NCBI GenBank assembly: GCA_030052745.1
Contig: JANBVO010000081.1
Location: 1-62,228 of the forward strand
DNA: 62,228 nt
Reading direction: 5' to 3'
Source of the DNA: Pleurostoma richardsiae
Taxonomy: Eukaryota; Ascomycota; Sordariomycetes; Calosphaeriales; Pleurostomataceae
Part shown: piece by piece, positions 9,001-13,585 of the stretch
Position numbering within the stretch: the stretch's first letter is position 1
How the letters are laid out: each line of letters opens with the position of its first letter
Translations under genes and position numbers: made by a program
The notes under the pieces: model-generated
What the model was told of the DNA's origin: nothing
Databases searched by the model: none
Seen by the model: the letters and a program-made list of their open reading frames with translations, nothing else

Positions 9001-11917
9001 CTACGTCCTCGCGAAGAACGACCTACAAGCCCGAACTGACACAGTAACAAGAATAGTCGTAAGAAGAACTAATCCAACTATGCTAAGTCTGCTCCTTACT
9101 ACTCCTGGATACTCCTGGCTGCTCCAGTCGTTCAGAGTTTCTAAAGAAGAGACAGTGTCTGGATGCTTCGGACCAAGAACTCGTTGCCGAGCTTGAACAC
9201 AACTCTTCATCAGCACCAAGGCATCCGCAAGTCGGCCTTGACTCCTCCAAGTAAAAGCAAGATTATTCATGCTAGTCAGTGTGTCGGGATGATCGACCCC
9301 AAGCTTCGTCTTGCGAGTTTCTATCACCTGCACCTCCAGCGATTCCGCCTCCTTCCACCGGCCTTGATTCCTGTACGTCGACGCCAGGTTAGCCATACTA
9401 GTCAACGTCGAAGGATGCTCCTCTCCCTGTACCCTCTTCCTCGTCTCTATCACCTGCACCTCCAGCGATTCCGCCTCCTTCCATCGGCCTTGATTCCAAA
9501 ACGTCGACGCCAGGTTAGCCATACTAATTAACGTCGAGGGATGTTCTTCTCCTAGTACCCTCTTCCTCGTCTCTATCACCTGTACCTCTAGCGATTCCGC
9601 CTCCTTCCACCAGCCTTGATTTCTGTACGTCGACGCCAGGTTAGCCATACTAATTAACGTCGAGGGATGTTCTTCTCCTAGTACCCTCTTCCTCGTGTCT
9701 ATCACCTGCACCTCCAGCGATTCCGCCTCCTCCCACCGGCCCTGATTCCAAAACGTCGCCGCCAGGTTAGCCATGCTGGTTAATGTCGAGGGATGCTCTT
9801 CTCCTAGTACCTTCGAACAAATCTTAAGCTCTTTTACTTGTAGGTCTTCGGCCTCCTTCCACCGGCCCTGATTCCTGTACGTCGACGCCAGGTTGGCAAT
9901 GCTGGTTAACGTCGAAGGATGCTCTTCTCCCAGCACCCTCTTTCCCGTCTCCATCACCTGCACCTCCAGCGATTCCGCCTCCTTCCACCGGCCCTGATTC
10001 TTATACGTCGACGCTAGGTTAGCTATGCTGGTTAGCATTGAGGGATGTTCTTCACCCAGCACCGTCTTCCCCGTCTCTATTACCTGTACCTCCAGCGATT
10101 CCGCCTCCTTCCACCGGCCCTGATTCCAAAACGTCGACGCTAGGTTGGCCATGGTGGTTAGCGTATCGGGATGGCCCGGCTCGAGCTTCGTCTTGCGAGT
10201 CTCCATCACCTGCACAAATAGCTCTTCTGCCTTGTCCCACCGGCCCTGATTCAGAAGCACCTCGGCGAATAATAACTCGCTCGATAAAGTGACGTTGTCC
10301 TCTTTCCCTAATATCTCCCTACGAGACCTCCATGCTTTACAGGCCATCCGCTCTGCCACGTCATATCTGCCCTGCGCTAGTGCGTACCAGGCTCCATTAT
10401 ACAGAAGAGTTGCCCACACCGCCTCTCGCTCATGCCCTACCGGCTTGTAGTCGACTGCTGCTTCGACGTGTGAGAAGAGTCTCTGGCATATGGCCCAGTT
10501 ATTATAATCGCCTGTCGGAAACGACACAGCCATCTGTGTCACGTATTTCCGCACAAATTCCTCGTGTCGCTCCTTGGCTTCCAGCCACTTCCTCGTTGAC
10601 AGCTGCACAAGCCCGTGCATCTCGAAGGTATCTCCATCCTCGTTGGTGCTGATGAGGGAGAAGTCCCTCAGCATCTGAATGTCGTCTTCAAACCCGCCTT
10701 CTGGCTCGCAATCACTGCTGGGGGATGCAGAGTCTTCCCATGTGTGTCGAGTACTACACTTTCGCCCTGTGTCTTCGGATGTTTTCGTGGACTTCAGAAG
10801 CGTTTCAGGAATGCCTTGTCGATCGAAGAAGCTCATAAACGCGAGGAGATCTGCTGCAGATTGTCGTTGGGAATGAATATAGTCGAAAGAGATTTGCCAG
10901 GTCGTCAGGACTGAGTTTGATGCGCTTCCATCGCGGCTGAGGTCCGCACTGCCATGGCTAAGGAGCCTGGTTCTCTTTCGCTCGCCCTCTCGGAACTCGG
11001 CCAGGTACTTCTTGAGCGAGCTACGAGGTGCACTTGCTTGTATATATCCAGCTGCCTGGCTGATGGCTAAAGGAACGCAGTCGAGCGCACGTACCAGCTC
11101 CTTGGCCGTGTCCATGTCAGAGATGGTCCCTAGTCTCTTCTCCAGAAGCAAGAGGGCGTCGGTTTGCATCATCGCTCCAACTTGGATTATGTTCCTCTCT
11201 TCCCCGACCAGTCTTCGGGCTAGGTCCTTATCTCGTGTCGTGAGCAGGATGGATCCGTTACGACTCTGTGGCAGGTACGAGCGTAGCGGTTTGTTGTTTG
11301 CGACTTCGGCCTCGAATACGGCACGGTCGTCAGCGCTGTCGAGGATCATGACCCATCTGCCGTTCTTCTCGTGTGATAACCAGGCGTATACAAGTTGAGG
11401 CAAGTCGGCTGTGGGCTGCTCTCGCCCCGGTAGCTTGACGACATCTGCGATCGCGCGAAACCCTTCTTCGACACGCGCCCGGGTGCCGGCATGGACCCAG
11501 AACACCCAAGTTTCTTTCTCTTCTTCGGCAATCCTATATGCAAACTCGATAGCTAGCTGCGATTTTCCAACACCACCCAGTCCCGCGAGGGCCACGCGGC
11601 CGGCGGGTTCGGCACATCGCTGCTTGAGCTGTTGGAGAATATCTCCGCGGTTGACGAAGCCAGGGTCTTGGCGGAAGGGGATCGACGCAAATGGCCGTGG
11701 CGGGGTTTCAGAACGTCCTGAGAATGTCAGCTTCACCTAAATGATGCTTGAGAACAGGTGTGTAACGGTGCTTCTTACCTGGCAGGTAGATATTATTGAT
11801 AGCAGTTCCGCCGAAGGTTTGCTGTCCTGCTATAACATTGTGCCCATGGATGGTCCCGAAGCTGGGACCGGCCGTTAGCATCTGAAAACTACGAGGATCC
11901 ACTTCGCGCTCGGCCAT
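9001..11917 (-). CDS. NLR1: amyloid-like motif + NB-ARC + TPR receptor
   Basis: Exon 1 is 11917-11779 and exon 2 is 11717-9001, with a 61-bp intron (GTAAGA donor, CTGAC branch, CAG acceptor) whose phases match; 951 aa. Residues about 20-43 hold a Gly-rich motif (FGTIHGHNVIAG, then GG and an Asn/Ile end) resembling fungal prion-like signalling motifs. NB-ARC follows: P-loop GLGGVGKS near 92-99, Walker B ILD near 171-173, a TTRD sensor near 206-209 and the CVPLAI motif near 260-265. Eight kinesin-light-chain-type 42-residue TPRs follow, seven of them nearly identical. A hydrophobic helix just before the C-terminus (VGLVLLTTILVTVSV) may anchor it in a membrane. It faces the PNP gene, whose C-terminus carries the same motif. 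The ATG at 11917 is the first in the motif exon, but the frame is open a little upstream to an AG, so a further 5' exon is possible. Family call strong. Confidence 0.9.
9150..10240 (-). repeat. 126-bp TPR-coding tandem repeats in NLR1
   Basis: Eight in-frame units of 42 codons each encode a TPR of the form LGEEHPSTLTSMANLAST followed by an NQGRWKEAESLEVQV block. Units two to seven differ at few positions, and fixed alternatives (TYRNQ or TFWNQ) alternate between them. Such high internal identity is a mark of NLR repeat domains under concerted evolution, where unit exchange changes ligand specificity. Copy number is likely to vary between strains. Confidence 0.85.
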
Positions 11918-12284
11918 CGTGAGGTACACTTCGGCTAAATCGTTCCACTACCTGCGCATCGTTCGCGGTTCAAGACACTAGTTGATCAAATGCTCTCATG
12001 TAATTCCCGAAGTGCTGCACCATCACATCGTGTGATGCCGCTTCGCTCGTCCTGATGAGAACAATATGGATGGCTGCCTGGAGGCCCAAGTGCGGCTGAT
12101 ACCAACACTTACCCCGCTCGTCACAGCCTTGCCGGTCTTTCGCACATCGCACATGGGACCTAGTCTGCTGCTCAATAGCCAAGCTCTTCAGCAATGCTTG
12201 CAAACCAGTGTCAGTCTCAGCTATTGCTAGCAGCCACCTGAGCGTCTGCCATTCATGCTATCCGTCTGCTGTGATGCTCCAAGC
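11918..12284. promoter_or_regulatory. Divergent intergenic region, NLR1 / PNP
   Basis: Only about 370 bp separates the two proposed start codons, so the genes probably share a bidirectional promoter. No clear TATA box was seen. The minus strand is unusually open here (about 12250 to 11970) in a frame that reads like a helical protein; see findings. Confidence 0.5.
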
Positions 12285-13585
12285 ATGCCTTCTCCACCGT
12301 TAAGCCGCGACGATTTCGAGGTGGCGATCATCTGTGCTCTGCCTACGGAGTACAATGGAGTCTCTCTAGTCTTCGACGATCTCTGGGACAACGACGGCGA
12401 TCGCTACGGGAGGGCCAGAGGAGATGACAACCAGTACACGACAGGTCGCATAGGGAAATGGGACGTTATCCTGGCGCTCCTCCCACACATGGGGAAAGCC
12501 AGTGCGGCCAGCGCGGCCGCCAGCATGCGCGCGAGTTACCGTGGTCTGAAGCTGGCCCTGCTTGTCGGGGTGTGCGGTGGCGTTCCACACAGCGAACACG
12601 GAGAGGTCCTGCTTGGTGATGTGGTCCTCAGCGAGACCGTTGTACAGTACGATTTCGGCAGGCAATACCCTGTCGGGTTTGTGCGCAAAAACACGGTCGG
12701 CAATAACCTGGGTCGAGCAAACAAGGACATCCGCGGCCTGCTCGCCATGTTCAAGACGGACCTCGGTATGGACAGGCTCGAGGAACGGACGGCGAGCATT
12801 CTCCGAGAGCTGCAGGCCAAGGCCGCACTGAAGAGGCGAATCGGTAATAGGTACAACTACCCCGGTACAGATCAGGACACGCTCTTCGAGCCTGCTTACC
12901 ATCACAAGCACCGCACCTCGGCTGCTTGCAGCTGCTGTGAACACGTCGGAGATTCTGGTTCCCCTTGTGACGAGGCGCTCCGCTCGTCGTGTGCCGTCCT
13001 CGGGTGTGCGGAAGACCACCTTGTCGCCAGACGTCGGCTGGAAGGCAAGCGGCGGCTTCAACAGGGGAACAGTGCTGCGGTGCAGCAGCCGGCCATCCAT
13101 GTCGGGGCAGTTGCGTCGGGAGATATGGTGATGAAGTCAGGCGTGCACCGGGACAGAATTGCTGGGAAGGAGGGTGTCATCGCCTTTGAGATGGAAGGGG
13201 CCGGCGTCTGGGACGAAGTGCCTTGCATCGTGGTGAAGGGAGTGTGCGACTACGCAGACTCGCACAAGCACAAAGGGTGGCAGGACTTTGCTGCTGCCAC
13301 GGCCGCCTCGGCAGCCAAGGCCATGCTCGAGCAATACATCCAATCTGATAAGATCCCGCAGGCCACCAGGAGCGAGAGTGAGTCTACAATCTCGACGTCT
13401 ACGACTCTGCTAACACGACGCCAGCAGCGAGGCATGATACTTCCGACACGGCTCAAGCTACCCAACACGCTGGGCCGCCGCGCGGCGGCTCAGGGCCGAC
13501 ATTCTACGGGCCGATTACAGGGCACAACGTGGTTGCAGGATCGTCGACGACCGGAGGTCATGTAACATACGATTTCCGATCGTGA
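12285..13585 (+). CDS. PNP/UDP-phosphorylase-fold protein with C-terminal amyloid-like motif
   Basis: Exon 1 is 12285-13377 and exon 2 is 13425-13585. The 47-bp intron has a GTGAGT donor, CTAAC branch and CAG acceptor, and the phases agree; 417 aa. An in-frame ATG at 12255 would add 10 residues. Residues about 7-355 match the fungal nucleoside phosphorylase domain found in many NLRs: FEVAIICALPTEY, VGVCGG, a Cys-rich insert, ASGDMVMKSG, FEMEGAGVWD and VKGVCDYADSHK. A Ser/Thr/Gln/Gly linker follows, and then the last 27 residues hold the motif YGPITGHNVVAG ... GG ... F. Reading on past the donor instead loses the motif. The protein has no NB-ARC of its own; it looks like a stand-alone effector of the divergent NLR1. 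Whether it acts as a phosphorylase, nucleosidase or binding module is not visible. Confidence 0.88.

Follow-up and report, generated by a model that had tools for sequence, protein, structure and literature searches.

Two predicted NLRs and a PNP_UDP-domain effector share a candidate amyloid-signalling motif in Pleurostoma richardsiae

The window analysed in this work is the whole 62,228-nucleotide contig JANBVO010000081.1 of the ascomycete Pleurostoma richardsiae (assembly GCA_030052745.1), a species classified in the order Calosphaeriales of the Sordariomycetes. It contains three neighbouring genes that carry copies of one short Gly-rich motif, namely two predicted NOD-like receptors (NLRs), NLR1 and NLR2, with the motif in the N-terminal part, and the effector PNP, which contains a PNP_UDP domain and carries the motif at its extreme C-terminus. 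The motif consists of a Gly turn flanked by two short hydrophobic-polar stretches. An earlier note on this DNA had proposed NLR1 and PNP as a matched pair; their shared motif is well supported by the sequence, while the third copy, on NLR2, had been overlooked. The features of the locus are as follows.

9001..11717, (-): NLR1 exon 2, with NB-ARC, DUF7779 and TPR_10 repeats (10 stretches), from Pfam and repeat analysis
11718..11778, (-): predicted NLR1 intron of 61 bp, GTAAGA...GCTGAC...CAG; the public protein P0121 is joined likewise
11779..11917, (-): NLR1 exon 1 in the predicted model, N-terminal 47 residues including the motif; matching N-terminus in P0121
11783..11860, (-): NLR1 motif copy FGTIHGHNVIAGQQTFGGTAINNIYL; shuffle test and profile (E 2.9e-5, six-frame window)
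11918..12284, no strand: stretch of 367 bp separating the divergent NLR1 and PNP start codons
12285..13377, (+): PNP exon 1, PNP_UDP_1 domain, residues 1-364 (PF01048, 59 bits)
13194..13196, (+): E304 of the EMEG motif of PNP, invariant in 49 aligned sequences
13248..13250, (+): D322 of the CDYAD motif of PNP, invariant in the same 49 sequences
13378..13424, (+): predicted PNP intron of 47 bp, GTGAGT...CTAAC...CAG; donor, branch and acceptor signals, and the unspliced relative P0001
13425..13585, (+): PNP exon 2 in the spliced model, linker and C-terminal motif
13502..13582, (+): PNP motif copy FYGPITGHNVVAGSSTTGGHVTYDFRS at the extreme C-terminus; shuffle test and profile (E 1.8e-15)
15477..18053, (-): NLR2 gene, with motif exon, NB-ARC and TPR_10 repeats; predicted introns 17892-17947 (56 bp) and 17693-17740 (48 bp)
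17952..18032, (-): NLR2 motif copy FGQISSRNAVAGTHVSGGTMNVTFNNS; shuffle test and profile (E 1.3e-6); absent from the earlier note

When the N-terminus of NLR1 was compared with the C-terminus of PNP, none of 20,000 shuffles attained the observed score. The same result was obtained for NLR2 against PNP, and a single shuffle out of 20,000 attained the score of NLR1 against NLR2. In the control comparison of the NLR1 N-terminus with the body of PNP, 4506 of 5000 shuffles did so. NLR1 and PNP share 10 residues in the 18 compared, and since 6 of these 10 are encoded by differing codons, the match appears to be maintained at the protein level. Furthermore, the C-termini of 35 PNP homologues, all from outside the window, were assembled into a profile (the row of P0018 was mis-cut to the linker), which was run against all six-frame segments of the window of at least 20 residues (1858, together with 1858 reversals). 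Only PNP (E 1.8e-15), NLR2 (1.3e-6) and NLR1 (2.9e-5) matched above the threshold, the next match being a reversed segment at 0.28. Both tests thus confirm that NLR1, ahead of its NB-ARC, and PNP share the motif. A search of the P. richardsiae genome (39.4 Mb, 136 contigs) for further copies by a strict motif pattern gave two places, both in the window, and protein queries matched only themselves; these searches are insensitive, as all of them miss NLR2.

In NLR1, FGTIHGHNVIAGQQTFGG precedes the NB-ARC. The gene starts at the ATG at 11917 (-), and the spliced model comprises 951 residues, compared with 756 in the public model. P0121, a public Pleurostoma richardsiae protein that corresponds to the window's own NLR1, has an identical N-terminus and an identical exon join, which means that another gene prediction agrees with our model. 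The TPR array at 9320-10164 (-) has a period of 126 bp with 84% matches and forms 8 repeats of 42 residues with a mean pairwise identity of 70%.

PNP extends from the ATG at 12285 to a stop codon ending at 13585, and the predicted splicing yields a 417-residue protein terminating in FYGPITGHNVVAGSSTTGG. The claim that the motif becomes visible on PNP only after removal of a perfect 47-bp intron was borne out by the predicted gene model, with coordinates of exactly 13378-13424; without splicing, the reading frame runs on to 13565 and does not include the motif. The nearest PNP homologue among the matches listed, P0001 (82% identity, 88% query coverage), is recorded unspliced. Inspected by eye, it has LTRRQ at the branch/acceptor end, followed by a near-identical wrong-frame tail, while the interior of the intron is different. 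Frame-shifted, this tail is compatible with FYGPITGHNVVAG, with between 2 and 8 residues, or a stop, possible at each position. The P0001 tail may therefore be taken as indirect and rather weak backing for the predicted intron. None of the 120 listed PNP homologues is named as a P. richardsiae protein. Retention of the intron leaves a long open frame encoding a motif-less PNP, both in the window and in the listed P0001, which might represent an isoform switch.

NLR2 starts at 18053 (-), and the predicted 56- and 48-bp introns link the motif exon to the P-loop GLGGSGKTQ, which is formed across the 48-bp intron (17693-17740). The last exon contains TPR_10 repeats (103.5 bits) and an NB-ARC that, without the P-loop part, scores 18.1 bits, below the cut-off of 23.5. 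The TPR array at 15649-16398 (-) has the same 126-bp period, and the gene is interrupted by 99 Ns at 16000-16098. NLR2 was also considered as a pseudogene; this was dropped because the 48-bp intron restores the P-loop, although the N run may affect the integrity of the gene. The 126-bp TPR arrays of both receptors (84-89% matches) are as expected for fast-evolving sensor repeats. Together, the gene models suggest two neighbouring receptors, NLR1 and NLR2, for a single PNP effector.

To what extent the motif is conserved was assessed on PNP homologues (7999 candidates scored, 2680 with E <=0.001, 120 listed). The possibility raised in the earlier note that it might be absent from them can be set aside, since 35 of the 120 listed end in the motif. 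These tails comprise 33 found by pattern, minus the false P0118, plus P0018, P0102 and P0103 by eye; P0014-P0016 and P0039 are divergent forms. Named carriers include Parachaetomium, Fusarium, Pestalotiopsis, Neonectria, Verticillium and Colletotrichum, which we take to be Sordariomycetes. Across 33 of the homologues plus the window copy (34 sequences), the mean pairwise identity is 60% for the first 20 motif residues and 14% (ungapped) for the 20 preceding linker residues, compared with 74% for a 70-residue piece of the domain; the linker varies between 11 and 52 residues in length.

Other listed homologues carry a different tail in place of the motif: 11 a QG-repeat, 5 an FGxxNxGxQ tail, one the PUASM consensus (P0042) and one a sigma tail (P0106, Pfam NACHT_sigma, 65 bits). 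By reading, the QG-repeat tails appear HET-s-like and the FGxxNxGxQ tails RHIM/PP-like, and the classes of P0107 and P0054 were assigned by eye. Three proteins (P0021, P0036 and P0072) continue into an NB-ARC-type P-loop; these are short gene models in which Pfam finds NB-ARC weakly at most. The remaining tails are short, unclassified or other. Of 40 tails shorter than 25 residues, 12 are in NCBI and 28 come solely from jgi, lgn or ena sources, the latter being taken to be unspliced frames. On a quickly built tree (120 rows, SH-aLRT only, P0107 excluded, 49 of 117 inner branches unresolved), the motif label requires 16 changes against all other rows, a figure inflated by truncated gene models, and 8 when only the rows with a named tail are considered. 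Since the label is clustered (shuffled mean of 31.1 changes, 0 of 500 shuffles as low), inheritance is indicated besides exchange.

On the receptor side, a query with the first 120 residues of NLR1 found 138 relatives, of which 120 were listed. Here, the absence considered in the earlier note is nearly the case: the profile detects the motif in only 2 of the 120, P0188 from Thelonectria olida and P0121, the window's own NLR1. Exchange comparable to that of the PNP tails is seen in these relatives: by pattern, the N-termini ahead of the conserved NB-ARC fall into 60 of the FGxxNxGxQ type, some of them annotated with PF17046 (the PP motif), 19 of another type and 41 others. In addition, NB-ARC and TPR are preceded by a PNP domain in P0161 and P0240. 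On another P. richardsiae contig (C24, locus L011), a frame with a PNP match of 37.2 bits is closely followed, in the same orientation, by a frame scoring 40.2 bits for NB-ARC and 466 bits for TPR, most simply a fused PNP-NB-ARC-TPR receptor judging from the adjacency of the frames. That these domains are fused in some cases and separate but motif-matched in others is, in our view, the best genomic evidence for a functional effector-receptor link.

The earlier note had assigned the effector place to a nucleoside-phosphorylase fold. The PF01048 domain is present, while phosphorylase is probably the wrong chemistry, as the domain best matches hydrolytic nucleosidases. The best curated model (NCBIfam) is the 5′-methylthioadenosine/S-adenosylhomocysteine (MTA/SAH) nucleosidase at 73.7 bits, below its cut-off of 169, compared with 14.3 bits for DeoD-type phosphorylase models (cut-off 230) and 17.8 bits for the hopanoid-associated phosphorylase. 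The top-scoring solved relatives among PDB sequences are likewise MTA/SAH and aminodeoxyfutalosine nucleosidases. In the alignment with the nucleosidases, E304 falls in their EMEGA motif and D322 on the first D of their SDxAD, and by analogy with the E. coli MTA/SAH nucleosidase we assume catalytic roles for both. E22, nearly invariant in the 49 aligned sequences, appears by reading to align with the N-terminal Glu of the nucleosidases. PADLOC matches PNP to PDC-M60C and to a PN-superfamily effector.

The domain is interrupted by a His/Cys-rich insertion (residues 207-241) in which H207, H209, C228 and C241 are invariant and C215, C217, C220 and C236 nearly invariant in the 49 sequences. It looks like a putative metal-binding site.

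According to its glossary, PMC11249213 states that the PNP effector of the bacterial Detocs system cleaves ATP. Excerpts of PMC11249213, PMC10197012 and PMC12881547 place PNP domains in immune-like eukaryotic proteins and, as reviews, favour ATP cleavage by immune PNP domains. The PNP_UDP genes hetA and hetD are described as acting in heterokaryon incompatibility in Aspergillus fumigatus (PMC11138114, in part). On the basis of the nucleosidase-type matches, the Detocs and review statements and the hetA/hetD incompatibility, the output of PNP would be that of a nucleosidase with ATP as the likely substrate.

The arrangement of neighbouring NLRs with an N-terminal motif and an effector with a matching C-terminal motif is that of a fungal amyloid-signalling pair, and PF01048 (59 bits) belongs to the effector domain types already established for NLRs. 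We therefore consider it probable that the locus encodes a split NLR-effector set, two receptors for one effector, with amyloid templating and a nucleosidase output. NLR1 and, by the shared motif, NLR2 would be sensors with variable TPR repeats in an immune or allorecognition module. Ligand binding would lead to NLR oligomerisation via the NB-ARC, whereby the clustered N-terminal motifs could adopt a beta-arch amyloid fold, which would then act as a template for the motif at the C-terminus of PNP, a separate protein. PNP, thus gathered and switched on, would cleave an adenine nucleotide or nucleoside, with ATP as the leading candidate, and the fungal cell would be arrested in its metabolism or die. 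The proposal builds on what can be read from the DNA and its relatives, namely predicted gene models, the motif on three neighbouring genes, the conservation of the PNP tail, its exchange and fusion, and the nucleosidase-type residues.

Several observations weigh against this proposal. P0188 is the sole motif-bearing NLR outside the window among those listed, and no PNP partner is shown alongside it; the motif occurs on PNP tails elsewhere, but recurrence of the exact NLR-PNP pair in another species is at best a possibility. A chimeric query for more motif-bearing NLRs listed only P0188; this search is uninformative, since P0121, a known positive, escaped it as well. The N run and the sub-cut-off NB-ARC in the exon tested may, in addition, compromise NLR2.

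A first alternative keeps the same wiring and concerns only the output, so that it overlaps with the split-set reading. Here, the enzyme would be an MTA/SAH-type nucleosidase whose substrates are methylthio or signalling nucleosides; it might interfere with the quorum signals of bacteria instead of depleting the ATP of the fungal cell itself. The best NCBIfam and PDB sequence matches, which are MTA/SAH and futalosine nucleosidases, fit this view, and Dyrka et al. 2014 (PMC4986451, in part) proposed such a role for fungal PNP_UDP domains. However, the scores are far below the family cut-offs (73.7 vs 169 bits), the excerpted reviews favour ATP cleavage by immune PNP domains (PMC11249213, PMC10197012, PMC12881547), and the excerpt on PNP-gene incompatibility in A. 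fumigatus (PMC11138114) points inward. We regard this output as rather unlikely.

A second, less probable alternative is that the motif serves as a conserved homotypic docking peptide that joins NLR and PNP without amyloid formation or templating. The evidence for pairing consists entirely of sequence matching, and none of the three copies is recognised by Pfam as a known amyloid motif. NACHT_sigma (PF17106) was not matched up to an E of 10 under default filters; the positive control P0106 scored 65 bits. The PP motif (PF17046, Ses_B) gave none either, with default filters that may drop very short motifs, and a simplified G-hydrophobic-Q-hydrophobic-G core pattern for PP fits 0 of 3 copies; a Pfam search of the motif pieces returned no family. 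On the other hand, the position, the length, the Gly turn and the replacement by sigma or PUASM tails in relatives fit known amyloid signalling motifs, so that we prefer templating.

Finally, a housekeeping nucleoside phosphorylase lying beside an NLR by chance, with a motif match that is a low-complexity coincidence, is hardly credible: short Gly-rich stretches may match by composition, but not one of 20,000 shuffles attained the score, the window-free profile picks only these three places, and a putative housekeeping MTA phosphorylase (by eye) sits elsewhere in the genome (C93, L010).

Beyond the split set itself, we tentatively propose a wider picture, to which we give somewhat less than even credence. 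The pattern FxGPIxGHNVIAGxxTTGGTxxFxF might define a distinct fungal amyloid-signalling family that is widespread on nucleosidase effectors. The locus would then be a hub of two neighbouring receptors and one enzyme, this enzyme lineage would have exchanged the plug for others (sigma, PUASM, RHIM-like or repeat-type), with motifs as interchangeable connectors, and the intron-retained transcript would give a plug-less enzyme. If the locus works as proposed, one PNP effector could serve two receptors and an effector lineage could change its amyloid connector, signalling specificity in fungal NLR networks would be testable by short peptides, and evidence would be added for nucleosidase effectors common to bacterial and fungal immunity.

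Elsewhere on the contig, a HET-domain gene lies at 25085-26917 (+), with a PF06985 match of 105 bits. The TPR gene at 30651-33265 (-) is the third of its kind, and its NB-ARC scores 21.2 bits, below the cut-off of 23.5; this third NLR needs introns or is decaying. With these two genes, the contig looks like an incompatibility or immune gene island. Between PNP and NLR2, a CorA-like frame (14110-15321, (+)) scores 23.8 bits, below its cut-off. It was dropped as a component of the system, given this score and the lack of a match to the motif profile.

Whether the pairing of an NLR with a PNP effector had been described was left open in the earlier note. This kind of pair has in fact already been published as PUASM: the excerpt of PMC9815663 describes PNP_UDP effectors paired with NLRs by this motif, whose peptides aggregate in vitro, the effector-side one behaving as a prion in Podospora. 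The excerpt also lists PF01048_015 as a second PNP motif with four pairs, and sigma, PP and an HRAM type as further motifs found with PNP_UDP, while PUASM 1-2 are named in PMC12261475 (in part). No paper naming the window motif was found by motif letters or related topics, in a literature search that left out most subscription journals. What the window has in common with PUASM is an NLR whose N-terminal motif matches the C-terminal motif of a PNP_UDP effector encoded next to it (PMC9815663). However, 0 of 3 window copies match the PUASM consensus FxGxGxQxxGxGxF, whereas the listed relative P0042 does; the PUASM receptors are annotated as NACHT or NACHT WD40 in the excerpt of PMC9815663, whereas those of the window are NB-ARC-TPR; and in the window two receptors share one effector. 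PF01048_015 is likewise tied to PNP_UDP there. The window motif may be the rare PF01048_015 or PUASM 2, or it may be a new family instead of a rare named motif.

In the NWD2/HET-S, sigma and PP systems, a motif on the NLR side also acts on a separate effector (excerpts of PMC9815663 and PMC4986451); the HET-S effector has a HeLo pore-forming domain (PMC4986451), whereas that of the window has PNP_UDP. The fused PNP-NB-ARC-TPR receptors (P0161, P0240 and probably L011) contain the same domains in one polypeptide, compared with two joined by the motif. Detocs likewise uses a PNP immune effector, with ATP cleavage (PMC11249213, in part); it is a three-gene two-component system without an NLR, in contrast to the NLR-based system of the window. 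Combined, the sequence comparisons indicate that the NLR-effector motif set is real and well supported; it is of a kind already published, here with an added second receptor.

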